Assembly: GCA_022826515.1 (NCBI GenBank)
Contig: JAJDUT010000110.1
Span: 1 to 64,000 of the forward strand
Direction of reading: 5' to 3'
DNA: 64,000 nt
DNA from: Candidatus Latescibacterota bacterium
Lineage (GTDB): Bacteria > Latescibacterota > UBA2968 > UBA8231
A program made the translations under genes and the position numbers. This document shows, piece by piece, positions 22,848-39,250 of the stretch (the first letter of the stretch is position 1; the number at the start of each line of letters is the position of its first letter). The notes under the pieces were generated by a model that worked only from the letters and a program-made list of their open reading frames with translations, did no database searches and had not been told where the DNA came from.

Positions 22848-22884
22848 TTGACAAGTGACAGGCGACACTGTGGGATACCAGTGT
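22848..22884 (+). promoter_or_regulatory. higBA promoter and candidate HigA operator
   Basis: TTGACA at 22848-22853 is followed after 17 nt by a weak -10 (TGGGAT, 22871-22876). An inverted repeat ACACTG...CAGTGT (22865-22870 and 22879-22884) spans the -10 region and reaches into the GTG start of higB. This is where an autoregulatory antitoxin would bind. The site is read from sequence only. Confidence 0.5.
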
Positions 22885-23161
22885 GATAGTATCATTCAAG
22901 CATCGGGGACTCGGGGCGCTCTACAATGGTCAAGGGGCGCGGAGAGTAGCACCAGAGCACGTCCGTAAGTTGAGAGATATTCTTGCGGCGCTTGATCGGA
23001 GTCGGACACCACAGGATATGAACTTGCCAGGCTTCAGGCTCCATCAGCTAAAAGGCCAGTTGAGGGGGCACTATGCTATCTCGGTGTCGGGAAATTGGCG
23101 CGTGACCTTCCGATTCCAAGATGGTCACGCGGTCGATGTGGACTACATAGACTATCACTAA
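22883..23161 (+). CDS. higB: HigB-type RelE-family toxin
   Basis: A 92-aa RelE/HigB mRNA interferase. The sequence opens MIVSFKHRGLGALY and contains DMNLPGFRLHQLKG near 45-58, SVSGNWRVTFRF near 67-78 and the C-terminal DVDYIDYH, all diagnostic for the HigB-1 plasmid-maintenance killer family. It should cleave translated mRNA on ribosomes when free of antitoxin. The start is GTG at 22883 inside an inverted repeat and without a ribosome binding site. The toxin gene precedes the antitoxin, as usual in higBA. Confidence 0.93.
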   Translation: MIVSFKHRGLGALYNGQGARRVAPEHVRKLRDILAALDRSRTPQDMNLPGFRLHQLKGQLRGHYAISVSGNWRVTFRFQDGHAVDVDYIDYH

Positions 23162-23175
23162 ATGGGAGTGGAAAT

Positions 23176-23478
23176 ATGGCAATGCACGATCCTCCGCATC
23201 CAGGTGGAATCGTACGACGACAGTGTCTGCAGCCGCTTGGTCTGTCCGTGACTAGGGCGGCGGAAGGTCTGGGCGTAACCCGTCAGGCGCTGTCCGATCT
23301 TGTAAACGAGAGGAGGGGCATCTCGACCGAGATGGCCATTCGCCTATCCAAGGCGTTCGGCTCTACGCCGGAGACTTGGCTCGGAATGCAGATGGCCTAC
23401 GATCTCTGGCAGGCCCGCGAACGCGCCGAGCAGATTGAGACCGAAATGTTTGAGATGCCGGCGGCGACGGGCCGCTAG
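23176..23478 (+). CDS. higA: HigA-type HTH antitoxin
   Basis: A 100-aa helix-turn-helix protein opening MAMHDPPHPGGIVRRQCLQPLG with the XRE fold VTRAAEGLGVTRQALSDLVNERRGIS and the HigA signature PETWLGMQMAYDLWQAR. It neutralises HigB and represses its own operon. The start at 23176 follows a GGGAGTGGA site 14 nt after the higB stop. A longer open frame back to 23095 overlaps higB and is not needed. Confidence 0.93.
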   Translation: MAMHDPPHPGGIVRRQCLQPLGLSVTRAAEGLGVTRQALSDLVNERRGISTEMAIRLSKAFGSTPETWLGMQMAYDLWQARERAEQIETEMFEMPAATGR

Positions 23479-23697: not shown

Positions 23698-24249
23698 ATG
23701 CAACTTCCCAAACCCGACTCCACCCGATTCAAGCGACGCGGAGACCTCATCAGTCGTCTGCTTGAACACCTGCGCGCCGATCAGATTATTCACCACCGCG
23801 AGGACGTAGTCGCCTATGAATGCGACGGCCTGTCGGCGTATCGCCAGCGGCCCATGCTGGTCGCCTTACCGGATAGCACCGAGCAGGTCGCGGCCGTACT
23901 CCGGTCGTGCTCCCAACTCGACATTCCCATCGTCCCTTGGGGCGCTGGCACCGGACTTTCAGGGGATGCCCTGCCGAGGGAATATGGAGTCGTGTTGAGC
24001 ACGGCGCGGATGCGAGCGGTCCTCGACATTGACTTGGAAAACCGCGCGGTGACCGTGCAGCCGGGCGTGACCAACCAAGCTGTGACCGAAGCGGTGGAGC
24101 AGAGCGGTTTCTACTACGCGCCCGATCCTTCGAGTTGGAACGGTTCTAAGGCGGCGAGTCTGCCGCCAATTACAGGCACAAAAATCACCGAGGAGGCGAT
24201 GCATGGCTACGGCCTTTGCCCTAGTGGGCGACCGCTATCACACGTCTGA
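23698..24249 (+). pseudogene. Truncated FAD-linked oxidase (GlcD-like) remnant
   Basis: The first about 146 residues match the FAD-binding N-terminus of glycolate oxidase subunit GlcD-type enzymes: HHREDVVAYECDGLSAYRQ, VPWGAGTGLSGDALP (FAD pyrophosphate binding) and QPGVTNQAVTEAVEQSGFYYAPDPSS. In intact enzymes the glycine-rich segment after APDPSS continues for over 300 residues. Here the sequence leaves the family at about 24135 and runs in an unrelated frame to a stop at 24249, overlapping the ThuA-like gene. A deletion has probably joined it to the next gene's upstream region. It is not expected to be active. Confidence 0.8.
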
Positions 24250-24931
24250 TTACATCCGCACGGCTTTGGGCCGCACCTTGGTCCAAGGCATGGGGTTGTC
24301 CATTGACTTTACCGACGAACTTACCCTGCTCAATGCCCAACATCTGTCGAGCTATCGGCTGCTGATCGTCTTCCGCGACGGCATGATCTGGCCCAATGGC
24401 TACGGAATAGAGGCTGCGTCCGTCAGCGAGCCGCCCGTCGAAGCGGAGGAATCCCGTCCCGTGCAGTGGATTACCGAGGATCAGGGCCGCGCCGTGCGGA
24501 ACTTTGTGGAGGCAGGTGGGGCGGCTCTTTTCTACCACAATTCCACGTACATCGCTCCAGGGAGCAGCGACTTCCGCCACGTGCTAGGTGCCGCTACGCA
24601 AGGACACCCGCCAGTGCGTCCCTACCGAGTGCACATCACGCGCACAGACCATCCCATAACGCGCGGTGTGGAGGACTTTGTCGTCGAGGACGAGCAGCAC
24701 TTCATGCAATACGACAAGGATCCAGCTCATGTCTTGGCCGTCAGCGTCAACGACGACGGGGACGCTTGGCAGGACTTGGGCACCATGTGTGAGGCGGCTT
24801 GGGCTTATGAGTACGGCGCGGGCCGCGTGTGCTATTTATCACCGGGACACACCATCCCCGCGCTGTGGAATCCATCCTACGAGAAGTTGCAGCAAAACGC
24901 CGTGCGCTGGCTGCTGCGCGACGACTTGTAG
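24203..24931 (+). CDS. ThuA-like (trehalose utilization) class I glutamine amidotransferase-like protein
   Basis: A 242-aa protein with the ThuA flavodoxin-like pattern: FALVGDRYHTSDYIR at the N-terminus, LLIVFRDGMIWP near 52, RNFVEAGGAALFYHNSTYIAPGSSDFRHVLGA near 100 and HPITRGVEDFVVEDEQHFMQYDKD near 150, ending in GRVCYLSPGHTIPALWNPSY. The catalytic cysteine of true amidotransferases is absent, as in other ThuA proteins. Family members occur in sugar catabolism clusters; the reaction is poorly defined. A good AGGAGG site lies 6 nt before the ATG. Confidence 0.87.
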   Translation: MATAFALVGDRYHTSDYIRTALGRTLVQGMGLSIDFTDELTLLNAQHLSSYRLLIVFRDGMIWPNGYGIEAASVSEPPVEAEESRPVQWITEDQGRAVRNFVEAGGAALFYHNSTYIAPGSSDFRHVLGAATQGHPPVRPYRVHITRTDHPITRGVEDFVVEDEQHFMQYDKDPAHVLAVSVNDDGDAWQDLGTMCEAAWAYEYGAGRVCYLSPGHTIPALWNPSYEKLQQNAVRWLLRDDL

Positions 24932-25011: not shown

Positions 25012-27186
25012 TCAATCGCTCGGCAGTGTCGATTCCAATGGAATGGCTTGTCCCGCTTCCATCACCGCGCCGACTTCGCCGCGCAGGCGCTCCTTGAGCG
25101 TGGTGTAGCGCTGGGCGACCTTGTCGTTGGCAATGGCCAGCTTGAGGGCCTTGGGAGTGCCGACGATGACGATCATTTGCTTGGCGCGGGTAATCGCCGT
25201 GTAGAGCAGGTTGCGCTGGAGCATCACGTAGTGCTGCGTCGTCAGCGGCAGCACCACCACGGGAAATTCCGACCCTTGAGAGCGGTGGATGCTGATGGCG
25301 TAGGCGAGGGTTAGCTGGTCGAGATCGACTTGATCGTATTCCAAGGTGTAGTCAAAGCGCACATAGAGCACCTGCTTGTCCGCGTCGAGCCGCTCGATTG
25401 TGCCGATGTCGCCGTTAAAAACGCCCTTGTCGTAGTTGTTTTTGACCTGCATGACCTTGTCGCCCACCCGGAATTCGGCTCCGCGATGGCTGTGCGCCTG
25501 CCCGTGCGGGTTGAGGCGCTGTTGCAGCTGCTGGTTGAGGTTGAGCGCGCCGGTCTCGCCGCGGTACATGGGCGAAAGCACTTGGATGTCGTCGCGCCGA
25601 TCCCACCCCCGATAGCTGGGCAGCCGCGTGGCGCACAACTCCTCCACTAGCTCGACCACCCGCTCTGGGTCGCCTTCTTGAATAAAGTAGAAATCCGCAT
25701 CCGCTTGGTTCTCGACGATGGGCATTTCGCCGCTGTTGATGCGGTGCGCATTGCGGATGATGTGGCTTTTTTGGGCTTGGCGAAAAATCTGCGTCAGGCG
25801 CACCACTGGCACTGCGGCGGAGTCAATGATGTCGCGGAGCACGTTGCCCGGTCCCACCGAGGGCAACTGGTCGATGTCGCCGACTAGCACTAACCGAGCG
25901 TGGTCGGGCAGGGCGCGTAGGAGCGCGTTCATCAGCACTACGTCGATCATGGAAGCCTCATCCACGATCAGCGCATCGACTTCGAGGAGGTCGTCGCGGC
26001 CTTTTTTGAATTGCCGCTCGCCCGGCTGAAATCCCAACAGCCGATGAATGGTCTTGGCCTCGCGCCCGCTGGCCTCGCTCAGCCGCTTGGCGGCGCGGCC
26101 CGTAGGCGAGCATAGCGCGACCTTAAGGCCGCCTTCCTCCAACAGGCGCAAGATGCGCCGCGTGACCGTGGTCTTGCCGGTGCCCGGCCCCCCAGTTAGC
26201 ACCAGCACCTTGCTGGTGGCGACCAGCTCCACGGCCTGTCTTTGCGCTGGGGCCAACTCCAGCTCGTCTTCTACTTCTGCGGGCATAGCCAATTCTGCGG
26301 CCAGCGCTTGTAAAAGCCGCTTTAGCGACGATGCGGCACCCACTTCGGCTCGGTGAAGCGGCGGCAGATAGTAGCGCATATCTTCGGTCACCACGCCATC
26401 GGTGGTGCGCAGGGCTTCCAATGCTGGCGGCAGCAACTCGGCGTTGATCTCCAAAATTTCGACAGCCCGCTCCATCATTTCGACGGCTGGTAGGTACACG
26501 TGGCCTTCGTCGGCCGCTTCGGAGAGCAGATAGCGGATGCCAGCTTGCACGCGCTCAGGCGCGTCGCGGCCTAGGCCCAAGCGCTGGGCAATGCGGTCGG
26601 CGATGCGGAAGCCGATCCCATCCACATCGCGCTCTAGGCGATAGGGATCGCTGCGGACCTTGTGGATAGCCTCTTGGCCGTAGGTCTTGAAAATTTTTAC
26701 CGCGTAGCCAGTGGTAATCCCATGCGACTGCAAAAAGACCATCACGTCCTTGATTTGTCGCTGCTCGTCCCAAGCCTCGGCAATTAGCTCGACCTTCTTC
26801 TTGCCCAACTTGGGCACTTCCGCTAGCTGTTGGGGATCCTCGTCGATGATGTCGAGCGTTTCCTCGCCAAAGTGCTCGACGATGCGCTTGGCCGACCTTG
26901 GCCCGATGCCCTTGATCAAACCGGACCCGAGGTACTTTTGCATGCCTTCGAGGGTCGAGGGATAAACGGACTTATAGCGATCCACCTTGAGCTGTTTGCC
27001 GTATTTGGGATGATTGGTCCACACGCCTTCGACTTCGATGCTCTCGCCTTCTTGGATGGAGGCAATTGCCCCCACGATGGCGATCCGCTCGCGCTGGCCC
27101 TCTATTACTAAGCGCGCGATGGTATAGCCGTTTTCCGGGTTGTGGTAGGTCAGGCGATCTATAAAGCCTTTATACGATTGGTTCAT
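25012..27186 (-). CDS. recD2: RecD2-type ATP-dependent DNA helicase
   Basis: A 724-aa SF1B 5'-3' helicase. The N-terminal OB-like part (YKGFIDRLTYHNPENGYTIARL) and helix-hairpin-helix region (LIKGIGPRSAKRIVEHFG) identify RecD2 rather than RecBCD RecD. Walker A LTGGPGTGKTTVTRR is near 332, Walker B LIVDEASMIDV near 407, and the C-terminal motif YAISIHRSQGSEFP near 640. RecD2 acts in DNA repair and replication restart. It is last in the long minus-strand gene run, 9 nt after the PAP2-like gene. Confidence 0.95.
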   Translation of the reverse strand: MNQSYKGFIDRLTYHNPENGYTIARLVIEGQRERIAIVGAIASIQEGESIEVEGVWTNHPKYGKQLKVDRYKSVYPSTLEGMQKYLGSGLIKGIGPRSAKRIVEHFGEETLDIIDEDPQQLAEVPKLGKKKVELIAEAWDEQRQIKDVMVFLQSHGITTGYAVKIFKTYGQEAIHKVRSDPYRLERDVDGIGFRIADRIAQRLGLGRDAPERVQAGIRYLLSEAADEGHVYLPAVEMMERAVEILEINAELLPPALEALRTTDGVVTEDMRYYLPPLHRAEVGAASSLKRLLQALAAELAMPAEVEDELELAPAQRQAVELVATSKVLVLTGGPGTGKTTVTRRILRLLEEGGLKVALCSPTGRAAKRLSEASGREAKTIHRLLGFQPGERQFKKGRDDLLEVDALIVDEASMIDVVLMNALLRALPDHARLVLVGDIDQLPSVGPGNVLRDIIDSAAVPVVRLTQIFRQAQKSHIIRNAHRINSGEMPIVENQADADFYFIQEGDPERVVELVEELCATRLPSYRGWDRRDDIQVLSPMYRGETGALNLNQQLQQRLNPHGQAHSHRGAEFRVGDKVMQVKNNYDKGVFNGDIGTIERLDADKQVLYVRFDYTLEYDQVDLDQLTLAYAISIHRSQGSEFPVVVLPLTTQHYVMLQRNLLYTAITRAKQMIVIVGTPKALKLAIANDKVAQRYTTLKERLRGEVGAVMEAGQAIPLESTLPSD

Positions 27187-27195
27187 GGGCTGCGC

Positions 27196-27810
27196 TCACC
27201 AGATGAAAGCACGGTACAGCAGGGCCATACTCCCCGCGCCCAGCGTGCCGCCCGCGCCGACCTGCATGGGAGTATGCGCCCGCAAGTAAAGCCGTGCCCA
27301 AGCGACGGCCGGCCAACTGAGCAAGAAGGGCCACGCCGCGCTGCCAACGCTGATCAACAATACACAGGTTGCCCCCCCGACACCAGCCGCGTGAATACTA
27401 ATCTTATAGAAGCGATTGATCCACCAGACCAAGAGCGTGTTGACGACACAGGACGCGGCCGTGACCAGCATCAGGGGCGGAGCGCCGATCCCGTAGAGGG
27501 CCGCACTTCCCAAGGCGTAGCAAAGAGCGCCCAGCAATAGCAGGGTAGCGCGCTTGTTGCGGTCGTCTGTATAGGCTTTGTCGAGATACCCCGAGCGCAC
27601 GAAGTGCCAGAGAAGCAGCCCAGGTACCAAGGAGAAGGTGCCGATCGCCACCGAGCCGGCGAGCCAGTCGCCCAGCACGTGGGCTTGGACGCCGAAGATT
27701 AACAGCGCCAACAGTGCGGGATTGAGCAAGTGGGAGAAAAAGTGTGCGACTGAGTGCAGACGAAAACAGGGACGAGCTAATTGCTCGCCCCTGTTTGTTT
27801 CTTTTGCCAT
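27196..27810 (-). CDS. PAP2-like integral membrane protein
   Basis: A 204-aa protein with about six transmembrane helices. The segments KISIHAAGVGG (near 136) and RLYLRAHTPMQVGAGGTLG (near 173) resemble the SxxxH and RxxxxxH motifs of the PAP2 phosphatase superfamily, while an upstream DDRNKR may stand for the K/R motif. The match is partial; a lipid phosphatase or an inactive homologue are both possible. It overlaps the PqqD-like gene by 34 nt, so it is translationally coupled to the transporter cluster. Confidence 0.65.
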   Translation of the reverse strand: MAKETNRGEQLARPCFRLHSVAHFFSHLLNPALLALLIFGVQAHVLGDWLAGSVAIGTFSLVPGLLLWHFVRSGYLDKAYTDDRNKRATLLLLGALCYALGSAALYGIGAPPLMLVTAASCVVNTLLVWWINRFYKISIHAAGVGGATCVLLISVGSAAWPFLLSWPAVAWARLYLRAHTPMQVGAGGTLGAGSMALLYRAFIW

Positions 27811-28226
27811 TTTTTTCCGCTGGCCACGCCGCGACCGGGCGGCCTCTCATCGTTTTCTAACACAAAGCCGATGAAGCGCTTCTGCCCAAGGGTCTTCAAA
27901 TACTGGAGCAGGGAGACCTCGGCCTCTTTGCGATTGAGCTGGTATTTGTCGCTGAGCTCTTCGATCATCCGGCCGACCGAGTTGCGACCGTTGCACATCC
28001 GCCAGACCTCGCTGCCGACCTCGTCGAGGGTAATTTTGCGCTGTCTAGGAATGTAGAAAAACTTGGACAGCAGCCGCACCCTCCAGGTCTCTTGGCGCTT
28101 TATTGAGACCTGAACCTCGCCGTTGTCGTTGTTTTCCCAGCGCAGGGACTCATTGCGCGTTGGCCGCGACGCCAGCATGGCGGCCCGGCTCAGCTTGGGT
28201 CCCTTGTTTTTTGATAAAATGCCCAT
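27777..28226 (-). CDS. PqqD-like (RRE-fold) protein
   Basis: A 149-aa protein whose central part matches PqqD: ITLDEVGSEVWRMCNGRNSVGRMIEELSDKY at about 65-95, then a helical segment with EVSLLQYLKTLGQKRFIGF. PqqD domains are peptide-chaperone (RRE) domains that usually work with a radical SAM enzyme on a precursor peptide. Neither is present nearby. The N-terminal 60 and last 25 residues are basic and specific to this protein. It overlaps the 330-aa gene by 77 nt and the PAP2-like gene by 34 nt. Confidence 0.8.
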   Translation of the reverse strand: MGILSKNKGPKLSRAAMLASRPTRNESLRWENNDNGEVQVSIKRQETWRVRLLSKFFYIPRQRKITLDEVGSEVWRMCNGRNSVGRMIEELSDKYQLNRKEAEVSLLQYLKTLGQKRFIGFVLENDERPPGRGVASGKKWQKKQTGASN

Positions 28227-29142
28227 CTACTACCTTGGCGACTAGATCTTCTGCTGCGTCTTTCTTGCGGTAGAGGTGCTCGACGATGAATATCTTGTCG
28301 ATGCTGGTATCGCGCCAGACGCGCCCCCGCAGATACAGGCGCGGCCTCGGGTTCATAAAGGGCAGGGGGCGCAGTAGCTGACGCCAGCGGCTGCGCGGCC
28401 GCCCCTCGACGAGAATGCCTTCATGTTCCTGCACATCTTCTGGCGCAATGTCCACCACGAAATCGCGCAAATTCTTTTTAAAAAAAACCGGATACCAGTC
28501 TTGAATGTGCGCATCTTTGAGCATAATCCGGGCCATGCTCAACCGATGCACCTTCAGAACTTGTTTGCCGAGGGAAAACTCTAGCTCGATGTGGCCCGAC
28601 TTGAGGGAATGGCTTTGTAGCTTGAGGTCGCTGGGCGCGAAAAACCGCAAGCCGTACACGCTCCACAGATACGCATCCTCGGCTTCTTGATCGACGAGCG
28701 AACTGAACACGGCCTCGGCTTGCTCGGGCAAAAACTCGTCTAGCTTGGCCAGCACTCGCAGGAGCACTACCCGCCCGGACTTCAAGGCGAGCGCTAGGTT
28801 GTAGGCGCGGAAGTCGGCCTCCCAGATGAAGACCTCGTATTCGCGGCCTTCGAGGAACTTCTTGTTTTTGAGGAATCGGGCGCGGCGCTGGACCTCAAAG
28901 GGAGCATCGACCTTTTGGGCCTTCTTTTGCAGGTTGGCTAGGTAGCGATCTACCAACTCAGTCAGACGCAGGGCCTCGCCGCGGCCTTTGAGCCGCCGCC
29001 ATTCGATCTCGGCGCGCACGATCTCGGCGTCGTCGAGGCGGGCATAGCCCTTTTCAAAATCCCCGTCAACTCGGCCGAGGTTCCAATCGTCGGGCACGGA
29101 CATCCGCAGCCCTTGCCAAGCGAAATCCACCCAGTCGCTCAT
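28150..29142 (-). CDS. Unknown 330-aa protein of the transporter cluster
   Basis: A soluble protein of 330 aa without signal peptide. It begins WVDFAWQGLRMSVPDDWNLGRVDGDFEKGY, a pattern reminiscent of the small PsbP/DcrB-like folds, and contains a second beta-rich part (IELEFSLGKQVLKVHRLSMAR, near 195) that might repeat it. A basic C-terminal region (RPRSRWRQLLRPLPFMNPRPR) could touch the membrane. I do not recognise a family. It lies 1 nt after the OPT-like transporter gene and overlaps the PqqD-like gene by 77 nt, so it belongs to the same operon. Confidence 0.75.
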   Translation of the reverse strand: MSDWVDFAWQGLRMSVPDDWNLGRVDGDFEKGYARLDDAEIVRAEIEWRRLKGRGEALRLTELVDRYLANLQKKAQKVDAPFEVQRRARFLKNKKFLEGREYEVFIWEADFRAYNLALALKSGRVVLLRVLAKLDEFLPEQAEAVFSSLVDQEAEDAYLWSVYGLRFFAPSDLKLQSHSLKSGHIELEFSLGKQVLKVHRLSMARIMLKDAHIQDWYPVFFKKNLRDFVVDIAPEDVQEHEGILVEGRPRSRWRQLLRPLPFMNPRPRLYLRGRVWRDTSIDKIFIVEHLYRKKDAAEDLVAKVVDGHFIKKQGTQAEPGRHAGVAANAQ

Positions 29143-29143
29143 G

Positions 29144-31570
29144 CTAGAAGATCAACACGGAGACCGATTTCTGGATCAGGGCGATCCCCACCGACGCCAT
29201 CCCCATCAGTGCCATGCCGCAGGCGAAGCCCACCGCCAGAACCGGGGCAAACTGCCGCCACTCCTGCCGCCCGTACTTGTTCCAAAAGTAGTAGCGAGCC
29301 AAGAGCGCGCCGATGATCTCGGTCACCACGTAATGCGGCAGAATCGTCAGCGAGCGCACGAAGCCAAAGATCAACAGGATCGGCAGCCCGAGTATAGAGA
29401 GCAGAATGAAGCTCACCACCCCGAAGCCGGCACCAAAGGCAATGACCTCAAGTTTCAGCGCCCTAAAGAGCCAAGGCACGTCGCTGGAGCGCTGGATCCA
29501 AGAACTGGTAAAGAGCGGATCGGTATCGACTTCAAAGTAGAAAGACCACCCCGCCGGTACGGCTCGTTCGACCTGAACTTCGAGGGTCGGGCGGGGATCG
29601 CGGATGATGGCGTCCATCGCTGGCCCTAATGGCGCAATCGCCGGTAGGCCCTCGACAACTTGCTCTTCGGCTAGCTGCTCGTCGCGCAGGTAGCGCTCGG
29701 CGACGATGTCGGGTGCCCCCTGATCGAAGTACGAGTAGAAGACTTGGGTCGGCATCCACGGGCCGACTTGACCGCGCTTGCCGTTGGAGTCCAGCCATTC
29801 CTGATCCACTAGCCGCACTCGCCAGTACCACCATTCGTTTTCGATCAGGTTAGCTGGAGTCCATCCCGCCTGATCTTTGTCTATGGCCAGTTCGCTGCGC
29901 ATGGTGCCGGTGATAAAAAGGCATTGCTGGTAGGCGCGCAGACGCCACATGAGCTGAGCATAGGGGTAGGAAGCCGACGGGATCGGTGCCAGTTTCCAGA
30001 TATAGGAGCCGTAGAGAAAACTGGTAAAGAGCACGATGGGCACCATGAAAATCTCGGCGCGGATGATGCTGGTAAACTGGGTGCCGGTCAATTCGATTTC
30101 GCGGAACTTCTGGGTCTGGGCACCGTAGTTGCCCAAGGGAAACGGAATGAACCAGATGTCAACACCGCGATACCCAGAGAGAATAATCGTGGCCTCGCGC
30201 ACAAAGGGAACGTCCACCGTCTGCCCTACCATCCCGACTAGGCGAGCGTTGACAAACGACTGAAAAGGCGTGAATACGAAACCAAAGAAGAGGAAGAACC
30301 ATATAAATTGGGCAATGCCCGGCAGCAGCCAAGCGGCGATGCCGATCAGGCCGGCCGTGGCCAAGGCGTATAGTGCCAACGCCACCCAGATGGGGAAATC
30401 GCCGCGGCCGGCAGGGGTGGCGAAGCCGCGCTTGGGACTGCCATCGTTTCCATTGCCGTTGTTAGCCCTAGCCTTGCGCACGCTCTGAACTATCTGGTAG
30501 ATGCCGATGGCGGCGATGGCGAAGGTAGTGCCGAGGCCGAAACTCATCCAGAAATCGACGTAGTTGACGAAGTAGGTCTCGATCGTGCCCATGCCTTGCT
30601 GCCACAAGTTCAGGTACGGCTCCTCGCGCCACGAAGGCGTCCAGGTGTAGAGCAGCGGGTTGGCAATGGAGGCGACGAGTACGCCGATAAAGGTGCCAAC
30701 CACGCCCCAGAACGGCACCACCAGCCCGGCAAAGATCGGTCCCAAGTGCGCGGTAAATCCCAGTGGAGTAGCCGGGATAAAATTGCCGGTGACTTGGGTG
30801 AAATCGATAAAGGGAATGGGTATGAGTTGGATCGGCTCGGTCAGCAGCGCGCCCGTAATCGCCGGCAAGGCCACGTAGATCGTGCCAAAGACCAAGCCGA
30901 TCATCGCCCCGGCCGAAAATACCCGCCAGCGCCACGTCTCAACCCCTTGGGTGGTCTCGGCCAGTGCCGTAGCGCCTTGGGCGTTTACGGGCGCGAAGGG
31001 AAAGGGTAGGCGCTCGTAGTCGGAGGTGAGCCGGAAGAGCGCGTACGACATGGTGAACCAGTTGATGCGCCAGATGATCATCCCCAAGACTAGGAGGACG
31101 ATCGGCATCGCCCAATCCGAGTGCAGGAAGGTCCGTTCGATGATGGCCGACGAGTCGGGCTGCGGTGCCACCCAGCCGGGGATCAGCTTGGCGATGCCAA
31201 ACTGCTTGGCCGCTGGCGATTGCACCAAGTACTGGTTGTAGAGCAAGCCTTCAAAGGCACCAGTCTCCGCGGCAATCAGCGAGCCGGCCACGTAGAACAG
31301 CACATAGACTTCTTGGCGCCGGAGCGAAGAAAAGGAGCGCTTGGTGATTTCGGCGAAGAGGATGATGGTCACCCACTCGGCCGCTGCTCCCAAAGAGCCG
31401 CCGATCATCAGGCTCAAGTACATGTTGCCCGGCACCATGATGAAGGCGACGAAGAGCACGCCGAGGATGGCCTTGATCGTAAAGCCGTTCTCGAAGCGGT
31501 CCGGGACCTGCATTAGGTCCCGATATTCTTCGATCTCTTGGTTCGGGTTTCTGTTTTTGCTTCCGAGCAC
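29144..31570 (-). CDS. OPT-like polytopic membrane protein (808 aa)
   Basis: A large membrane protein with about 14 hydrophobic segments. It shares layout and local motifs with the DUF6785-type transporter at 36350-38305: the paired-helix WVTIILFAEITKR region, the segment SYALFRLTSDYERLPFPFAPVNAQG, where the paralogue has RQWVERERLVYPLVQVPLAM, and the late hydrophobic repeats. These are distant relatives of oligopeptide transporters. An insert of about 200 residues (near 545-725) is extracytoplasmic-looking. The start is GTG at 31570 with a GGGAGGA site. It lies 13 nt after the giant M28/FtsX gene. Confidence 0.78.
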   Translation of the reverse strand: MLGSKNRNPNQEIEEYRDLMQVPDRFENGFTIKAILGVLFVAFIMVPGNMYLSLMIGGSLGAAAEWVTIILFAEITKRSFSSLRRQEVYVLFYVAGSLIAAETGAFEGLLYNQYLVQSPAAKQFGIAKLIPGWVAPQPDSSAIIERTFLHSDWAMPIVLLVLGMIIWRINWFTMSYALFRLTSDYERLPFPFAPVNAQGATALAETTQGVETWRWRVFSAGAMIGLVFGTIYVALPAITGALLTEPIQLIPIPFIDFTQVTGNFIPATPLGFTAHLGPIFAGLVVPFWGVVGTFIGVLVASIANPLLYTWTPSWREEPYLNLWQQGMGTIETYFVNYVDFWMSFGLGTTFAIAAIGIYQIVQSVRKARANNGNGNDGSPKRGFATPAGRGDFPIWVALALYALATAGLIGIAAWLLPGIAQFIWFFLFFGFVFTPFQSFVNARLVGMVGQTVDVPFVREATIILSGYRGVDIWFIPFPLGNYGAQTQKFREIELTGTQFTSIIRAEIFMVPIVLFTSFLYGSYIWKLAPIPSASYPYAQLMWRLRAYQQCLFITGTMRSELAIDKDQAGWTPANLIENEWWYWRVRLVDQEWLDSNGKRGQVGPWMPTQVFYSYFDQGAPDIVAERYLRDEQLAEEQVVEGLPAIAPLGPAMDAIIRDPRPTLEVQVERAVPAGWSFYFEVDTDPLFTSSWIQRSSDVPWLFRALKLEVIAFGAGFGVVSFILLSILGLPILLIFGFVRSLTILPHYVVTEIIGALLARYYFWNKYGRQEWRQFAPVLAVGFACGMALMGMASVGIALIQKSVSVLIF

Positions 31571-31583
31571 TCGTTATCCTCCC

Positions 31584-34500
31584 TTACGCCGACACTTCGC
31601 TGCGCAGCCCTTGTAGAATTTCCTCGCCCTGTTGGCGGTAGCCTTCTTTGGCCTCGGCATCTACCGTGCGCCAGATGAGGAACTGTTTGCGGATGACGTT
31701 CATAAAGCGCTGGTTGACCCGCCGCCACGAGGCGTCCTCGCCGCTGAGCCGCTTGATTTGTAGGCTGACCGCGTAAATGTTGTGCTCGGCCTCTGGCATG
31801 GCCCGCACAGTGACGTGTTGGCTGACGCCCAAATCGAACGGAGCCAGCCAGATATTCATGTCGATAATGTATCCTTCGCCATTGGGCGTTTCTTCGCGGT
31901 TTAGCTGGGCACCGTCGGTGTAGAAGGTGCCGATGGACTCTTCGCTGTAGGAGTCGAAGTAGCCGATGAGAAATACGCTCAAGCCCAAGACCTCGTGGCC
32001 ACTGACTGTAAAGGGGAACTCGAAATCCCACTGGTCGCCGTCGGGCGGCGGCAGCTTCCACTTGCGGGTCACGTCCGGCACGGCCATTTGCGAAGCCTTG
32101 CGCGCCGGATAAATCGTCGAGAGCATGACCACGGCCATCACCAGCATACAGGAGAGCACCGCGGCCACTGAGGAGTAGTTGAGCGTGAAGCCGCCCAAAA
32201 GGTCAAATTCGATCAGCACTTTGGCGATTACTTGGCCGCTGAGATAACCGGCGACCACGCCCAGTACCGAATAGACGCAACTCTCGGCGATAAAAAGCCA
32301 TGAGATGTGGCCGGGGGCTAGGCCCACCGAAGAGTAGATGCCGATCTCGCGGAAGCGCTCATACACGCTGCCCATCATGGTGTTGAGCACGATTAGTGAG
32401 GCGATCAGCATGGGGATGAACAAATTGCTCATCCCGGAAAAGGAGGTCATGCCCAGCGATGAGTAGATCGACACCTTGATGTATTCATCGCCGGCCTCCT
32501 TGACTCCGGCGAACAGCGTTACCGCGAGGCGCGAGAGGAACTCCTCGACCTCGCCGCGCACATCGCTGCCTGCGGGGAAGCGCACGGCTACCGACTGTAG
32601 CGGGTTGCCGCTGCCGACGTTGCGCAACGTGTGGTAGGGAATAATCAGGGTGTTGGCTGGCTCTATGTGGACGAAGGGCTTGATGACGACCTTGGCGTCC
32701 TCCAGCCCTTGTTTCTCGCGCTGTTCTTCTTCGGCTATTTCTTGCACTGCCTGACCGCCGGTGACGGCGAAGTCGGCTGGCGTCAGAATTTCGTCGTCGA
32801 GGTCTTTGAGGTCCTTCATGCGCTTGGAGTCGATGACGCCCACCACCGTGAACAAGTCGCCGAAGACCCTGACTTGCGCTTGACCAACGTCGGCCAAATC
32901 GACATCAAGATGGGATTCCTTGACCATGTCGATGGGCAGGATACAGGCCTTGTCCTCGCCCGGCTCAAACCAGCGTCCGGCGACTAGGGCTTGGTTGAGC
33001 CGAGTAACTTGAGTCTCTGCGGGTGCTAACCCTAGGACACCGAGCGCGTTATGGGCTTTGTCTCCGTGCTTTATTTTGATGTGTGCTTTGGCCTTGTTGC
33101 TGTACCAACTGCGCGGCGCGACTGCGGCCCGATCACCGAAATTGCTGCGGGCGTATTCGAGGACTGAATCCTCCATCGGATTCCACGCCTTGCTGCGGAT
33201 GAGGATGCCCTCGTAGAGACCCTCGTTGTCGCGACTGATTTGGTTGAACCGCAAGCCCGTGCGGATGGAGGTAAAAGAGAGCACTGTGAACGTTAGCAGC
33301 AAGAGCGTGGTAAAGGTGAGCACCGTACGCGTCTTGCGCCGCTTCATGTTGGAAATCCCGAGCTGGAAGGCCGTCAGCGAGGCCGAAGAGCGGCTGACGT
33401 CCGTGTCGTGGATCACGGCTACTTCGGTGCGCAGCTTCTTCATCTGCTCGTTAAAGCGGCCGGAAATAATCGACATCACCAGCACTGCCAAGGCGATGAT
33501 GATAAAGGCCAGCAGAATGACGAAGGGATTGGATAGCTGAAAGGCCGGATGCACCAGCCACAACACGATCCAGATCGCCAGGAAAACCCCGGCGAATCCG
33601 ATGATCTGATTGCGGATCGTGGCGGCCGTAAAAATGAGCCGCTCGGTGAAAAAGGCGCAGGGAATGACGAGGGCCATGAAGAAGATAATGCCCTGAATGA
33701 CGTCGTTTTGGGTGGATTTGACGTCTGGATAGGCGCGCGATTCCAACCCGAAGGCCGCGCGCGTGTGGCGCACGAAATCGCCCCAGCGCTGCTCGGTCTC
33801 AGCCTCGGAGGCTTGGGCCAACTCGGCTTCGGCGCGATAGTGGAGGTCGTTGAGGCGCTGGTTTTCAATGGCAAAGCTCCGCAGCTCGCGCATTCGCGAC
33901 TCGTCGAGATTCCACATGTCTTGGGCGGCTTGGAAGGTCGTGCGGGCAAAGGAAGTACCGGGGCGGATCTCAAAGCCCTCGCCCTCGGCCTTTTCCTTGT
34001 CGGTTACGCTGGTGGCGTTGAGCAGGAGCGAGCGGAATCCCAGCAGGCCGGCACCGAATCCCATCTTGATGTGCGAACCGGGCCGTGCGAAGAGCACCCC
34101 GACCGGCTCGTTTTGGGCCGAAGGGCCCTCGCCGATGGTATAACCGTACTCCACAGGTGGACCGTTCGTTTCGTCGAAGACCTGCACGTTGGACAGCTTG
34201 GTCAGATAGCGCGGATCGACGATGTCGAAGAAGTTGTAGGGTACGCAGGGGAAGAGGATGACCATCCATTGCTTATCGCGCCAGTCCATGGCGACCCGCA
34301 TGGGGTAGCTTTCGTCGCCTTGCACGCCGCGGTCGGGGGCGTAGGTGATGCGGCCGGTGATCGGGTCCATGTAGTAGCCCTCAATCTGCACGTTGTTGAC
34401 CCGCACCCGATTTACGTAGAAGGCCCCCTTATCATCTACTACTTCGTAGTACTCGCCGCGCACGCCTTTATACGACTTTTTCTTGCCGTTGCGCACCACG

Positions 34501-36335
34501 GCTACGGCGTCTGCACGCGGCAAGTCGGGGATGATGCTGCGGCGTGGAAAGACCATAGTCCGACCGCGCAGCGAGCGCAGCGTGTCGCGCAAGCGCATTT
34601 TGAAGTCCGGGAATAGCTCTGGGTCTGCAAAGGCCATCTCGAACATGCCGGAGAGCACCCGGATTTGTTTGGCGAGGTTGGCGTAGTTGACGTGCTCAGC
34701 CCGGTCTAAGGGCGTATCGACGAGGAAGCGCGCGTCGTTGACAGTGACAAAGGCCAATGCTGGCGTACCGGTCGCCAACACCAATTCGCTATTGACCGAT
34801 ATTTCGCCTGGTACAAAGGTCTGCCAACTCATCCCGCCTTCGGGGCTGATGCCATTGACCAGCACATCGCGCCGCTGATAATTCAACTCGCGGCTGATCT
34901 TGCGCGCATACCCCATGAAGTTCTTGCCGAAGGGTGCGAAGTAGCGCTTGTAGTAAAAGCTGGTATTGCTATTCCACACTCCGAGTTCGTCGGTTTGCGA
35001 CGAAAGGTCGAGGCTGATAAAGAGCTTGACCGCGAGCGAATCCACTTTGGGATCGACCCAAGTTTTGAAGAGCGCGAGGCGCAAGTCATCGTCCGAGCGC
35101 AATTCGTCAACCAGTTCGCGGCGATCTTTGAATTGCTCGTCGGCGAGGTGTAGTGCGCCTCCTTCTTGGCTCAGCAGCCCTTCGGCGAGTGCAGCGTCGG
35201 CAACGCGCGCGGCCAAGTCGGTGCGCCCTTCGGCAACGCCCCGCACGAGGGCTTCCTTACCGGCGAACTCCTCCTCGCCGATGGCGTAGTGGATGCCGTC
35301 TTGGGCGATCATGTTCCGCGCGAGTGCAGCATCGACGACCCGCCTCACCAGCATGTGCTCGATGAAGGGCTCCTCTTTGCGCAAATAGCGTTGGATGAAA
35401 TCATCAATCCCGCGCAAGCCCAAGTGGTGGGCCGAAGTGGCGAGGAATACGACCGTGCGCGCTGGTGGATTTTCGCGAAAGTAGCGAGCCAGCTCTAACA
35501 GCGCAGTAATGCCGGAGGCTTGCTCGGCACCTGGGGCAAGGGCTGGCACCACGGACATGGCGTCGTAGTACGCTTCTAGCACGATCACGTCCTCTTTTAG
35601 CAAGGGATCGTATCCCGGGATCGTGCCGAGGATATTCCAAGCGGGACGCCGCTCCCAATCCATGCGGTACTGCAGGTGAAGCGTCTGCTCGCCCTCGGTC
35701 GCCAATTGGCGGCGCAAGTGCTGACCGACTTGGCGATTGACCCAAAACCTCGGCAGGTCGAGCGGCATGGTGAGGAATTTCTTCTCGCCCTCCAAGTACA
35801 CGGTGGAGTCCGGCTCGATAAAGAGGATAGCTTGCGCCCCGAGGTAGGCGGCATTGAGCCAGGCGTCGCCCGAATTGAAGTCCATCAGAGCGACGGAGCC
35901 TTCGACTTGCTTGCCGTCCATGTCCGCGTACTCACCCGCGCCCGCGTCGATCAAGCGCTTGGTCACCCCGTCTTCGGGCAGCGTCGAGGTTTTGACGAGA
36001 TTGGGCCACAGGCCGTGGATTGGCACTTGTTCGTCGCTGCCAACTACTTGCAGAAATCCGCCCTTATCGACCGGAATAGATACATCGTATTCGTGTACTG
36101 TGACGTCGTCGAGGCCGATGGCGCGGAAGCGTTCCTGCACGATCTGGGCCGCTTGGTCGGCACCTTGATAGCCGGCAACTCTAGACCCCAAGCCGGCAAA
36201 GGTGTCCATCGTTTGCTGCACGCGCTTGACCGGGGCCGTGCGCGCCAGCTCGGCAAAATCGACTTCGGTCCAAGCCGGTGCTGCGCCGACCAAACTCCAG
36301 CCGAAGGCCATCCATCGCATCGCGAACTTAGGCAT
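31584..36335 (-). CDS. Giant fusion: degenerate M28 peptidase domain plus FtsX/MacB-type permease
   Basis: A 1583-aa protein. After a signal sequence (MPKFAMRWMAFGWSLVGAAP) comes an M28-like domain with a PA-type insert (about 30-320). Its metal and catalytic residues are altered: the HxD becomes Tyr256-x-Asp258, GADDNASG becomes GAEQASG, and the Glu-Glu pair becomes His303-His304. A long extracytoplasmic region follows, then two or three helices near 920-1000 and an FtsX/MacB unit with a first helix near 1040, a periplasmic domain and three late helices (FIPMLIASLIVLNTMMGSVYERFREIGIYSS near 1350). The start at 36335 replaces an upstream extension to 36515 that overlaps the preceding gene. 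No ABC ATPase is encoded beside it. Confidence 0.85.
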   Translation of the reverse strand: MPKFAMRWMAFGWSLVGAAPAWTEVDFAELARTAPVKRVQQTMDTFAGLGSRVAGYQGADQAAQIVQERFRAIGLDDVTVHEYDVSIPVDKGGFLQVVGSDEQVPIHGLWPNLVKTSTLPEDGVTKRLIDAGAGEYADMDGKQVEGSVALMDFNSGDAWLNAAYLGAQAILFIEPDSTVYLEGEKKFLTMPLDLPRFWVNRQVGQHLRRQLATEGEQTLHLQYRMDWERRPAWNILGTIPGYDPLLKEDVIVLEAYYDAMSVVPALAPGAEQASGITALLELARYFRENPPARTVVFLATSAHHLGLRGIDDFIQRYLRKEEPFIEHMLVRRVVDAALARNMIAQDGIHYAIGEEEFAGKEALVRGVAEGRTDLAARVADAALAEGLLSQEGGALHLADEQFKDRRELVDELRSDDDLRLALFKTWVDPKVDSLAVKLFISLDLSSQTDELGVWNSNTSFYYKRYFAPFGKNFMGYARKISRELNYQRRDVLVNGISPEGGMSWQTFVPGEISVNSELVLATGTPALAFVTVNDARFLVDTPLDRAEHVNYANLAKQIRVLSGMFEMAFADPELFPDFKMRLRDTLRSLRGRTMVFPRRSIIPDLPRADAVAVVRNGKKKSYKGVRGEYYEVVDDKGAFYVNRVRVNNVQIEGYYMDPITGRITYAPDRGVQGDESYPMRVAMDWRDKQWMVILFPCVPYNFFDIVDPRYLTKLSNVQVFDETNGPPVEYGYTIGEGPSAQNEPVGVLFARPGSHIKMGFGAGLLGFRSLLLNATSVTDKEKAEGEGFEIRPGTSFARTTFQAAQDMWNLDESRMRELRSFAIENQRLNDLHYRAEAELAQASEAETEQRWGDFVRHTRAAFGLESRAYPDVKSTQNDVIQGIIFFMALVIPCAFFTERLIFTAATIRNQIIGFAGVFLAIWIVLWLVHPAFQLSNPFVILLAFIIIALAVLVMSIISGRFNEQMKKLRTEVAVIHDTDVSRSSASLTAFQLGISNMKRRKTRTVLTFTTLLLLTFTVLSFTSIRTGLRFNQISRDNEGLYEGILIRSKAWNPMEDSVLEYARSNFGDRAAVAPRSWYSNKAKAHIKIKHGDKAHNALGVLGLAPAETQVTRLNQALVAGRWFEPGEDKACILPIDMVKESHLDVDLADVGQAQVRVFGDLFTVVGVIDSKRMKDLKDLDDEILTPADFAVTGGQAVQEIAEEEQREKQGLEDAKVVIKPFVHIEPANTLIIPYHTLRNVGSGNPLQSVAVRFPAGSDVRGEVEEFLSRLAVTLFAGVKEAGDEYIKVSIYSSLGMTSFSGMSNLFIPMLIASLIVLNTMMGSVYERFREIGIYSSVGLAPGHISWLFIAESCVYSVLGVVAGYLSGQVIAKVLIEFDLLGGFTLNYSSVAAVLSCMLVMAVVMLSTIYPARKASQMAVPDVTRKWKLPPPDGDQWDFEFPFTVSGHEVLGLSVFLIGYFDSYSEESIGTFYTDGAQLNREETPNGEGYIIDMNIWLAPFDLGVSQHVTVRAMPEAEHNIYAVSLQIKRLSGEDASWRRVNQRFMNVIRKQFLIWRTVDAEAKEGYRQQGEEILQGLRSEVSA

Positions 36336-36349
36336 AGTTGGTGCCTTTC

Positions 36350-38305
36350 TCAGATCCAGAAGACCACATTGTCGGTCATGCCCGTAAAAAAGTCGATAAT
36401 CAACCAGAGCCCCGCGATGAAAAACTGGCCTATGATTAGGCCTAAAAAGAAAGGACGCGCCCGGCGAAAAAGACTGGGGCCGCCGTATTTCATCGCCAAC
36501 AACTTTAAGAGCCAAGCGATGGCAATGCTAAACCACAACTGGTCCATCAGCCATACGGCACCAATCGGGTAACCGATGGGATGCAGAGGCCACCACAAGA
36601 GCCGCTGGCGCGCCCACATGAGCAGGGCCATGATGCCCCCGCCGACAAAAGTGTGAATCCAGCCATCGATATTCGGCTCGGTGGGCGCACTTAACTTGGT
36701 GGTAATATAATCAAAAGGGGCGCGAGTTCCACCTCCAAAAAACCACGGGTTGAGGTTGATGCCGCCGTATTCGTAGGCGAGGTACAAAATCGCGGCGACC
36801 GAGCCGACGATGCTAACGACAATCGCCAGCAGCATGTACCAAAAAAGCGGGCGCAGCCTCGACCCTAATCCCTCGCCCAACTTGAGGCCGTGTGCGCAGG
36901 AAGCCATGACAAAGGTGCGGATATCAGCCGCCCACACGAATGTGTATGCAAGGCCGACCATACCGGCCGGGCCGATCGCCGAAGAGCCGACAGCCGAGAC
37001 CAAGACCGTCGGAGAGATCATCGGTCCGACCGCCGCGGCCACACCTCCTTCTACTACCACTCGAGTTAGGCCGACGAAGATAAGGATGGCCAGCATCACG
37101 GTCAAAAAGGCCGCCCACAGCGGCAGGCCGGACTGCCACAGCCAGATGGTCATTACTGCGACGCCGGAGAGCCAAGTTAAGACCGCTGCCCGATAGGAGA
37201 GCATCTCGCCGCGGTCGTCGATGCGGTCGTCGCCGCGGAATGCTTTGCGCAGCACATCGCGCAGGTGCTCGCGGCCGACCCACAGGCCGAAAAACACTAG
37301 GACGATCATCGCGCCCTGTCCCTGATGGGCGAGGATCGGCTCGCTAGCAGCGCCGTAAACGAGCTTTTCGGTGCTGCCAACCCCTAAAACTCCCAGCCCC
37401 CCTCGGATCAGCTTGGCGATGGTGTTGAAAAACCACAGACTGAAGGCGATGTCGAGGTTGATCAGATAGGCAAATCCGATCATGGGAAAGCTCAGGCGGA
37501 AGATCAGGCTGACGGTGTTGCGCAGGATCGGAATCGAAGAGACGAGCTGGATGGCGGGGATGAAGTTGAAGTACGCGTGTAGGGCGTTGAGGCTACTGAC
37601 GAGCACGGGCAGGGCAAAGCCGACCCACATGATTGGATTTTTGAAGAAAGGACCTAGGGCTTCTCCGCGGCCTCCGCTCTGCACCATGGCCAAGGGCACT
37701 TGCACCAGCGGATAAACTAGCCGCTCCCGCTCTACCCACTGGCGACGCATAATGACCATAGACGAGATCATCACCAAATACAGGGCTACAATGAGAATGG
37801 CCCAATAGCACAGCGGGCCGCTCCAAGTGGCCCAGGGAACCCCAATGGTGCGCGGTGCTCCTTCGTAAAACCACTTGATCGCTTCGGGATCCTGCGGTGC
37901 GATCCACTCGGGAAGGTGCGGCAGGATGAGCAAGGCCCACTCGTTTTCCGGGGTGGCGTAGTACTGGGCACCGGTGATGATCGTCAGCCAGTACTCACTG
38001 AGGCCCATCGTGGGGATGGCCGAGGCCGTGAGCATCATAATGTACGCCACGATGAGCTCGCAGCGTCCGAGGGCCACAGAAACGGCAAAGCGCGCCAGCA
38101 AGGCGTTGAACAAGCCCGTCAATAAAAAGAAAAGGAACAGGGCACCCGCGGCGCTGAAATCAATCGACATGTAGGAGCCGCGGATGACCATGTTGCCGTA
38201 CGGTGCTCCCACGGCGATGCACAGCGACCCTAGGGTGCCCGCCACCAGCGCTTTGGCGCTAAAGACCGGCTCGGTTTGCAAGGTAGGCTTTTGGGGCAAG
38301 TCCAT
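36350..38305 (-). CDS. OPT-like transporter of the DUF6785 type
   Basis: A 651-aa integral membrane protein with about 14 helices. The conserved segments ELIVAYIMMLTASAIPTMGLSEYW (near 83) and RQWVERERLVYPLVQVPLAMV (near 187), and the C-terminal GYPIGAVWLMDQLWFSI, match the DUF6785/DUF6784 proteins of Planctomycetes, Poribacteria and Latescibacteria. They are distant relatives of oligopeptide transporters with no known substrate. It is immediately upstream of the M28/FtsX gene (14 nt). The helix-rich core suggests uptake or release of a peptide or peptide-like compound; that is inference. Confidence 0.85.
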   Translation of the reverse strand: MDLPQKPTLQTEPVFSAKALVAGTLGSLCIAVGAPYGNMVIRGSYMSIDFSAAGALFLFFLLTGLFNALLARFAVSVALGRCELIVAYIMMLTASAIPTMGLSEYWLTIITGAQYYATPENEWALLILPHLPEWIAPQDPEAIKWFYEGAPRTIGVPWATWSGPLCYWAILIVALYLVMISSMVIMRRQWVERERLVYPLVQVPLAMVQSGGRGEALGPFFKNPIMWVGFALPVLVSSLNALHAYFNFIPAIQLVSSIPILRNTVSLIFRLSFPMIGFAYLINLDIAFSLWFFNTIAKLIRGGLGVLGVGSTEKLVYGAASEPILAHQGQGAMIVLVFFGLWVGREHLRDVLRKAFRGDDRIDDRGEMLSYRAAVLTWLSGVAVMTIWLWQSGLPLWAAFLTVMLAILIFVGLTRVVVEGGVAAAVGPMISPTVLVSAVGSSAIGPAGMVGLAYTFVWAADIRTFVMASCAHGLKLGEGLGSRLRPLFWYMLLAIVVSIVGSVAAILYLAYEYGGINLNPWFFGGGTRAPFDYITTKLSAPTEPNIDGWIHTFVGGGIMALLMWARQRLLWWPLHPIGYPIGAVWLMDQLWFSIAIAWLLKLLAMKYGGPSLFRRARPFFLGLIIGQFFIAGLWLIIDFFTGMTDNVVFWI

Positions 38306-38336: not shown

Positions 38337-38861
38337 TTATAACTGGCCTTGGTCCAACCAGCCTATTTTCGCCAATTGTTCCAAGGTAAACCAAGCCAAC
38401 AGGCCGATCGCCCCCCCGCTCACCAAAGCGCTGAACAAGGCCAGCGGCAAAAGCGCGAATAGACCGCTGTGGCCGATATAGCCAGTGGCGAGAACGAGTT
38501 GGCTGAGTTGATGCGCCAACGCGCCCCAGATGCTCAGGCCCACGACGCTGAAAAGCCGCGCTCCCATGCGGCGCACCGCAACCATGACCAACCAACTCGC
38601 CAAGCCAGCCCCGCCGCCAATGACAAAGGCCGGACCGGCAAACCCCCCGCTGAGCAAGCCGCCAACTACCAGCTTGATGGCACTAACGGCCAATGCCGGG
38701 CCGCCGCCAAAGCTCACTAGCGCGACCAAAACCGGCAAATTGCCGAGTCCCAACTTCATCCAAGGCAAGGGTTTGGGCACCAGCGATTCAAAGGTGAAGA
38801 GCACAATTGCCGCACTGGCCATAAGCCCCAAACGAGCCACGTCTCTAGGGCGCGCAAACAT
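38337..38861 (-). CDS. Gx transporter family membrane protein
   Basis: A 174-aa protein with about five helices. VPKPLPWMKLGLGNLPVLVAL (near 28), GFAGPAFVIGGGAGL (near 70) and the glycine-rich helices match the Gx transporter family, ECF S-component-like proteins once annotated as heptaprenyl diphosphate synthase component I. The start at 38861 overlaps the stop of the NusG_II gene (TGATG). The pair is a conserved couple in many anaerobic bacteria. The substrate is unknown. Confidence 0.85.
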   Translation of the reverse strand: MFARPRDVARLGLMASAAIVLFTFESLVPKPLPWMKLGLGNLPVLVALVSFGGGPALAVSAIKLVVGGLLSGGFAGPAFVIGGGAGLASWLVMVAVRRMGARLFSVVGLSIWGALAHQLSQLVLATGYIGHSGLFALLPLALFSALVSGGAIGLLAWFTLEQLAKIGWLDQGQL

Positions 38862-39250
38862 CAGTGAATCATCGCGTCTATGGGCGCGTCCCCAGCGATC
38901 CTCAGCACTAGGCCATTGGGCACGCATGCGGCCACGTCGCCTGCCCGCTGTATCCAGCCCCGCCGCATGCAAATTTTGTGGACGCAGGGTGCGGAAAGTA
39001 CGCGTGCGCCCTTGGGGGCGATCTCGATCTGGCTCTCACCCAAAGGTCCTACAACCGGCAAGATTCCGTAGTCGGAGAGAGCATGCGTAGCGGGCGCAGC
39101 TCCGGCCAACTCGACGATGAGCGCGCCGCCGACTTCGGCTGTATAGCGGCCGTAGAGTATCAGCCCGATCGCACTCAAACCCACGACGAGTGCGAGGATT
39201 TTATCTGCTCGCGTCAGCGCTGGTGCGTTTTCGGTGTTTAGCCTCCGCAT
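38861..39250 (-). CDS. NusG domain II-containing protein
   Basis: A 129-aa protein with one N-terminal membrane helix (ILALVVGLSAIGLILYGRY) and an extracytoplasmic NusG_II-type beta domain: ESQIEIAPKGARVLSAPCVHKICMRRGWI near 72-100, then AACVPNGLVLRIAG. The Cys pair in PCVHKIC and the third Cys in ACVPN are the family pattern. Such proteins are paired with Gx transporters; the exact role is unknown. It opens the long minus-strand run and is divergent from rel. Confidence 0.88.
   Translation of the reverse strand: MRRLNTENAPALTRADKILALVVGLSAIGLILYGRYTAEVGGALIVELAGAAPATHALSDYGILPVVGPLGESQIEIAPKGARVLSAPCVHKICMRRGWIQRAGDVAACVPNGLVLRIAGDAPIDAMIH

Follow-up and report, generated by a model that had tools for sequence, protein, structure and literature searches.

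The 64,000-nucleotide (nt) window analysed here, from a Candidatus Latescibacterota genome (assembly GCA_022826515.1, contig JAJDUT010000110.1, positions 1 to 64,000), carries seven genes at positions 25012..38305, all on the minus strand according to the open reading frame (ORF) list and coordinates. Five of them belong together (Table 1): the genes for a DUF6785 protein, a very large protein joining an M28 peptidase-like domain to an FtsX permease (M28-FtsX), an oligopeptide transporter (OPT)-like protein (OPTL), a protein of 330 amino acids (aa; U330) and a PqqD-like protein. We followed these genes through 64 genomes of the phylum, drawing gene maps for 40 loci, and through a set of 386 genomes, 60 in the phylum and 326 outside it. 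The full unit consists of M28-FtsX, the OPT-like transporter, U330, the PqqD-like protein, a short FtsX permease and a LolD/MacB-type ATPase, often together with DUF6785; we are highly confident of this composition and of the family assignments.

A preliminary description of the locus had reported tight packing, and the coordinates agree with it: 14 nt separate DUF6785 from M28-FtsX, 13 nt separate M28-FtsX from OPTL and 1 nt separates OPTL from U330. U330 and the PqqD-like gene overlap by 77 nt and the PqqD-like and PAP2-like genes by 34 nt, and a 9-nt gap leads from the PAP2-like gene to recD2, all these lengths hinging on the start codons chosen. For M28-FtsX, the ATG at 36335, with a purine-rich stretch 5' of it and the DUF6785 stop at 36350, is a better start than the longer TTG-start form (36515).

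Table 1. The cluster, the domains of its largest protein and two adjoining genes, in window positions
Feature	Position	Strand	Evidence
DUF6785+DUF6784 multi-span membrane protein, 651 aa	36350..38305	-	PF20581 E 2e-123, PF20580 E 2e-31
M28-FtsX, 1583 aa	31584..36335	-	Pfam Peptidase_M28, MacB_PCD and FtsX on one chain
M28-FtsX residues 25-560, M28+PA-type fold, rewritten active site	34656..36263	-	
M28-FtsX residues 1003-1412, FtsX permease core including MacB-like periplasmic domain	32100..33329	-	PF12704, PF02687
OPTL, OPT-like multi-span transporter, 808 aa, C-terminal insertion	29144..31570	-	
U330, 330 aa, two predicted PsbP/Mog1/DcrB-like domains, presumably cytosolic	28150..29142	-	
PqqD-like winged-helix (RRE-type) protein, 149 aa	27777..28226	-	PF05402 E 1.5e-10
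PAP2-like membrane protein, neighbour only	27196..27810	-	PF01569 E 0.0026, under cut-off
recD2 helicase, neighbour only	25012..27186	-	Pfam, clear match

A peptidase fold without its active site, between two transporter-like proteins

The permease part of M28-FtsX is recognised by Pfam (MacB_PCD, 29.2 bits against a cut-off of 27; FtsX, PF02687, over its cut-off) and by PDB profile matches to YtrF, MacB and LolC. Judged from hydropathy only, about three transmembrane (TM) segments follow the M28 ectodomain (residues 877-963); Pfam and hydropathy then place FtsX TM1, a MacB-like ectodomain (~1026-1290), the remaining FtsX TM segments and a cytosolic tail. A proposed homology of this cytosolic C-terminus to U330 was rejected, as hhalign found nothing (E 0.11). 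Two architectural variants were encountered among relatives: a single 2088-aa protein in which M28-FtsX and DUF6785 are fused (L100:6190-12456, in the one-contig genome G005; confirmed with Pfam) and a 2362-aa relative with a LysM match (L143:6192-13280).

The structure model and its PDB matches indicate that the M28 domain has kept the aminopeptidase fold. However, the working extracytoplasmic peptidase implied in the preliminary description is not supported, as the active-site residues are replaced in 141/141 aligned M28-FtsX sequences. The catalytic Glu base is absent from every one of them, the Glu152-equivalent zinc ligand is never Glu (0/141), the His256-equivalent, the last His ligand, is Asp in all 141, and the His97-equivalent, the first His, is Tyr or Phe in 139. 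With these ligands replaced, a two-zinc site of the known kind cannot be built. A peptidase-coupled importer, in which the M28 domain would cut peptides for the OPT-like transporters, could still point to the intact fold, to the two sequences that keep the first His, to one Asp zinc ligand conserved in 141/141 and to PDB entry 2anp, an Aeromonas aminopeptidase whose catalytic Glu is changed to His and whose title contains the word 'functional'; set against the replaced ligands, we regard this as highly improbable. The domain is very probably a pseudo-peptidase. Several residues of its pocket are still invariant, and the large 'peptidase' part probably works as a receptor.

The two transporter-like proteins that flank M28-FtsX are homologous to each other over 576 columns (hhalign Prob 92.5, E 4.8e-7). 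The window's DUF6785 protein is assigned unequivocally (PF20581, 413 bits, cut-off 25). OPTL falls into no Pfam family, and the window's copy matches the NCBIfam model OPT_sfam weakly (E 3e-4, 19 bits against a cut-off of 128). OPT models match two of 17 OPTL members in each library (Pfam and NCBIfam), the best PF03169 match reaching E 4.9e-6 and the window's protein not being among the two; for the other 15, neither library gives an OPT match at E<=0.01. Since comparison of the OPTL and DUF6785 profiles with PDB gave no chain at E<=1, the link to OPT rests on the hhalign comparison and the OPT-model matches. One OPT-like protein, of 1075 aa, carries PDZ domains (L098:6986-10213).

DUF6785 is found in 59/64 phylum genomes and in none of 14 control genomes. 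In the one-contig genome G005 (6.27 Mb) this uncharacterised transporter-like family is greatly expanded, with 50 copies, all over the cut-off. Six of the G005 loci that lie away from M28-FtsX were sampled and ten neighbouring genes scanned; these included two sulfatases (in two of the six loci) and one family-5 solute-binding protein, the rest belonging to other families or to none. Such neighbours are compatible with solute uptake, and too few for proof.

Proposed motor parts outside the window and a presumably cytosolic pair

Gene order outside the phylum exposed two parts that are not in the window, namely the short FtsX permease and the LolD/MacB-type ATPase. The best ATPase match within the window is a distant ABC (ATP-binding cassette) protein at 19304-21610, with 82 bits against 360-520 for the family. 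In the members scanned, Pfam identified FtsX (PF02687, over cut-off) in the short permease and ABC_tran (PF00005) in the ATPase; in PDB, the former is closest to MacB and LolF and the latter to MJ0796, MacB and LolD. The short FtsX measures 208-251 aa in the loci read and has no extracytoplasmic domain, its TM1-TM2 loop spanning just 22-53 residues in 14/14 sequences read (from hydropathy only). As the open frames around close hits are 168-321 aa long, no large ectodomain is hidden upstream. Short FtsX and M28-FtsX likely form a heteromeric permease.

Both parts are widespread in the phylum. Short FtsX was detected in 56/64 genomes at E<=6e-65 (next match 5.6e-23), two of which had contributed sequences to the profile, and the ATPase in 55/64 at E<=8.4e-130 with a profile built without phylum sequences; the next ATPase match, at 2.5e-111, is a second paralogue. 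The ATPase gene adjoins short FtsX on the same contig in 54 of these 55 genomes, the two lying on different contigs in G043. Likewise, of 26 loci chosen for short FtsX, 25 have the two genes side by side, including those of all 12 out-of-phylum genomes, G043 again being the exception, and a PqqD-like gene adjoins the pair in 11 (L110, L113, L114, L115, L136, L137, L142, L147, L186, L187 and L202). In the window's nearest relatives the pair occupies a separate locus; in G005, it (810516-811214 and 811290-812015) lies ~192 kb from the main cluster (607957-618422). Names attached to the best 120 of 7961 short-FtsX proteins include Latescibacteria, Desantisbacteria and Zixibacteria.

The second ATPase paralogue (308-361 bits) occurs in L196-L201, which represent five genomes of family f4 and one of f3, and in L203 and L206. 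Scoring 349-361 bits, it precedes the start of the DUF6785/M28-FtsX/OPTL triad by 0.7-1.9 kb in L196, L197, L199, L200 and L201 and is near the triad in L198; in L203 (G031) it is 8 kb away; in G005 (L206) it is not near M28-FtsX. Two other candidates were discarded. An ATPase-less permease of the ADOP type was rejected once a dedicated ATPase and a second permease were found to co-occur with M28-FtsX, which itself matches the ADOP model TIGR03434 weakly (33 bits, cut-off 622). The ORFs of 236-250 aa that precede M28-FtsX in L113 and L114, considered as the ATPase, proved to be TPR proteins.

U330 has no Pfam family and, by hydropathy, no TM segment. Its structure model (pLDDT 84.8) identifies it as a double PsbP/Mog1/DcrB-like protein, as both halves match such folds in PDB; an internal duplication is just suggestive at the sequence level (Prob 67, E 5e-5), and the fold search settles the matter better. 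Copies that are 93-98% identical were found in eight loci from metagenome-assembled genomes labelled Latescibacterota, Latescibacteria or Gemmatimonadetes/Gemmatimonadota. The PqqD-like protein exceeds its Pfam cut-off (PF05402, 41.7 bits against 23.4), its PDB profile matches are to TbiB1/PqqD, and in relatives its gene stands next to U330 or short FtsX.

This PqqD/U330 pair is the best argument for an export or membrane-extraction machine of the LolCDE/MacB kind. There, the two proteins would capture a cargo, either a cytosolic peptide or a transmembrane one, the FtsX/ATPase pair would extract it from the membrane, the M28-like ectodomain would hold it on the outer side and the OPT-like proteins would be partners in envelope assembly. 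We consider export possible, though it is not the reading that we favour.

Recurrence within and beyond Latescibacterota

Within the phylum, M28-FtsX matches were obtained in 64/64 genomes. The four genomes of family f6 give weak ones, E 3e-12 at best, and phylum-wide searches yielded no U330, OPTL, DUF6785 or close short-FtsX/ATPase match in that family. U330 is present in 56/64 genomes, as a single copy except for two fragments in G037, and the PqqD-like protein is also present in 56/64, one match being weak (G053, E 5e-5); OPTL or a paralogue was matched in 55/60 relatives. The 40 mapped loci resolve into two modules, the triad of DUF6785, M28-FtsX and OPTL on the one hand and the U330-PqqD pair on the other. 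In the loci read, the pair comes after OPTL in families f1, f5, f8 and f9 and sits at other places in f3 and f4.

The triad module is repeated within one genome. At least seven paralogous M28-FtsX loci occur in G005, a lower bound, with 8 of 30 first-look candidates scored; DUF6785 adjoins M28-FtsX or is fused to it in all seven loci read, and OPTL is present in four. That the transporters and the large permease belong together, as the preliminary description had proposed, is thus supported by repeated triads in one genome and by one direct fusion.

Among the 386 genomes, M28-FtsX was found at E<=1e-60 in 68, of which 56 are inside the phylum and 12 outside it, in 10 families. Short FtsX (E<=1e-35) was found in 66, 54 of them inside, and its carriers outside the phylum are exactly the 12 with M28-FtsX. 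The PqqD-like protein (E<=1e-15) was found in 62 genomes: 52 inside and 10 of the 12 outside, all but G188 and G324. Neither short FtsX nor the PqqD-like protein appeared at these thresholds in any genome without M28-FtsX, the 314 such genomes outside the phylum included. A U330 profile made from phylum members only found its target in 8 of the 12. The cut-offs differed by part and the large first-look lists were partly scored, so that absences are valid only at the thresholds given. Some of the out-of-phylum genomes counted were themselves profile donors: G101, G138, G246 and G280 for short FtsX (4 of the 12) and, for PqqD, every genome except G175, G311 and G353 (7 of the 10). None was a donor for U330. 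The absence of both parts from the 314 other genomes is unaffected by this. Fisher p values of 4e-22 and 2e-17 ignore shared ancestry and are not used as support.

Gene order is also retained outside the phylum. OPTL directly follows M28-FtsX in 10 of the 12 genomes; U330 and/or PqqD come next in seven (L136, L137, L143, L145, L146, L147 and, with one extra ORF between, L144) and lie upstream in L142. The clusters include short FtsX in four cases (L136, L137, L142 and L147) and the ATPase in seven (L136, L137, L142, L143, L145, L146 and L147). The full order M28-FtsX > OPTL > U330 > PqqD > short FtsX > ATPase is seen in L137 outside the phylum and in L113, L114 and L115 inside it, and L142 contains all six genes plus DUF6785 in another order. 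With gene order and composition both repeated in other families and beyond the phylum, the cluster is more than a chance arrangement, and the earlier suggestion of a recurrent unit is supported. The strongest evidence for one unit is the co-occurrence rather than any single neighbourhood, in genomes related to an unknown degree.

In L136 and L137, which come from genomes of different families, a GAF-GGDEF protein follows the ATPase gene. A signalling or regulatory complex (FtsEX- or BceAB-like) would use the ATPase and FtsX as a relay, of force or of a sensory signal, that links the pseudo-M28 ectodomain with the cytosolic PqqD/U330, thereby controlling envelope enzymes or the OPT-like transporters. 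However, the GGDEF neighbour was confirmed in those two loci only, no recurring kinase or regulator was seen, and the close association with transporter-like genes speaks for movement of a solute; we consider this alternative improbable.

The conserved set does not include the last two of the seven genes. The PAP2-like gene and recD2, which had been counted as members, stand beside the cluster in only 4/40 mapped loci each, all of the window's own family (BLASTP E<=1e-5 for the PAP2-like protein), and the PAP2-like protein reaches 18 bits against a PF01569 cut-off of 27.2. The nearest genome, G001, has 54% of the window's sampled words. Directly upstream of the cluster (window 38337-39250) lie genes for a Hpre_diP_synt_I-type membrane protein and a NusG domain II protein, the latter keeping its place in G001. 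On the other side, a 183-aa ORF (23698-24249) that resembles the start of the glycolate-oxidase GlcD and then breaks off is presumably truncated and overlaps what we take to be a ThuA-like ORF (24203-24931), and tandem small RelE/HigB-like and HigA-like ORFs (22883-23478) presumably represent a toxin-antitoxin pair.

A proposed split Type VII machine and its relation to known systems

We put the probability at about one half that the cluster encodes most of a conserved, split Type VII (MacB/LolCDE-like) ABC machine with a pseudo-peptidase receptor and OPT-like partners. In such a machine, the ATPase would drive two paired permeases, the short FtsX without an ectodomain and the large M28-FtsX, and the ATP-driven movement would be passed to the extracytoplasmic side. 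There, the pseudo-M28 domain might bind a ligand, a peptide or similar oligomer, and load it onto, or release it to, the OPT-like/DUF6785 secondary transporter, which would carry it across the membrane. On the cytoplasmic face, U330 and the PqqD-like protein would be adaptors or regulators. In large genomes, a single short FtsX, working with one ATPase or with two paralogous ones, could serve several M28-FtsX receptors.

Substrate and direction are what we infer rather than observe. Only three things hint at a peptide: the link to OPT, itself weak, the PqqD domain and the receptor's descent from M28. Uptake through the OPT-like partner is a tentative proposal. A fully modular machine, in which a common short-FtsX/ATPase motor powers interchangeable giant receptor-permeases, each a pseudo-peptidase that feeds its own OPT-like transporter, is more speculative still, and we think it unlikely. 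It would be an ATP-driven loader for secondary transporters, a way of working that, to our knowledge, is not known for any ABC system.

Several observations weigh against the split import machine. OPT membership is weak, with the two matching members of 17, and the PqqD/U330 pair would be no less suited to loading a cargo for export than to import. The two ATPase paralogues, which occur in f3/f4 and, outside the phylum, in G247, G102 and G378, tell against one strictly shared motor. Some co-occurrence rows match by construction, owing to the donors among the short-FtsX (4/12) and PqqD (7/10) genomes. Of the 12 out-of-phylum carriers, four have no detectable U330, two no PqqD-like protein and two (G175 and G311) no OPTL beside the M28-FtsX loci read. 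Inside the phylum, 5 of the 56 M28-FtsX carriers, all drafts, are without a detected part: short FtsX in G017 and G056, PqqD in G026, G043, G056 and G062, and U330 also in G026, G043 and G062. Given these carriers, either some parts are dispensable or the draft assemblies have gaps.

No description of this gene set, and no mention of DUF6785, was found in the full-text literature searched, whose scope excludes most subscription journals. Two accounts of Type VII ABC complexes (PMC12646458, PMC5985334) state that ATP hydrolysis produces movements used on the extracytoplasmic side, typically without substrate passage through the inner membrane, and that function is set by the partner proteins. 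Partners are what define Type VII systems, which gives weight to a set of partners, so far undescribed, that is found again in ten bacterial families beyond Latescibacterota. The case is also a warning that proteins annotated as 'M28 family peptidase' in these genomes need not be catalytic; an earlier Latescibacteria study counts M28 among nutritional peptidases (PMC4454575), and its M28 proteins may or may not be of this kind. The unit is directly testable, each component now being named and locatable.

Among known systems, OPT transporters (PF03169, TIGR00728) are multi-span proteins like OPTL; they differ in that most OPTL members match no OPT model and that the L098 copy bears PDZ domains. 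As in ADOP, the orphan FtsX permeases (TIGR03434), the window's permease gene lies away from its ATPase, whereas here a dedicated ATPase and a second permease co-occur. The M28/PA-fold receptors, such as the transferrin receptor and the nicalin/nicastrin group, share the M28 fold with a lost or altered zinc site, and their known cases have a receptor-type role; unlike them, the pseudo-M28 domain of M28-FtsX is fused to a bacterial ABC permease and retains several invariant pocket residues. The E. coli YbbAP-TesA system (PMC12646458) likewise combines a Type VII permease with a hydrolase-fold partner outside the inner membrane, but here the hydrolase fold belongs to family M28, is fused to the permease and has no active site, and a separate short FtsX is present. 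No MacA/TolC/LolA-type partner was seen among the genes read, no search having been aimed at one. With MacB, LolCDE and FtsEX, the unit shares the FtsX permease core, the MacB-like periplasmic domain of M28-FtsX and a LolD/MacB-type ATPase. In contrast to these, one of its permeases bears a pseudo-M28 domain and extra TM helices while the other has no extracytoplasmic domain, and its partners are OPT-like, PqqD-like and double PsbP-fold proteins.

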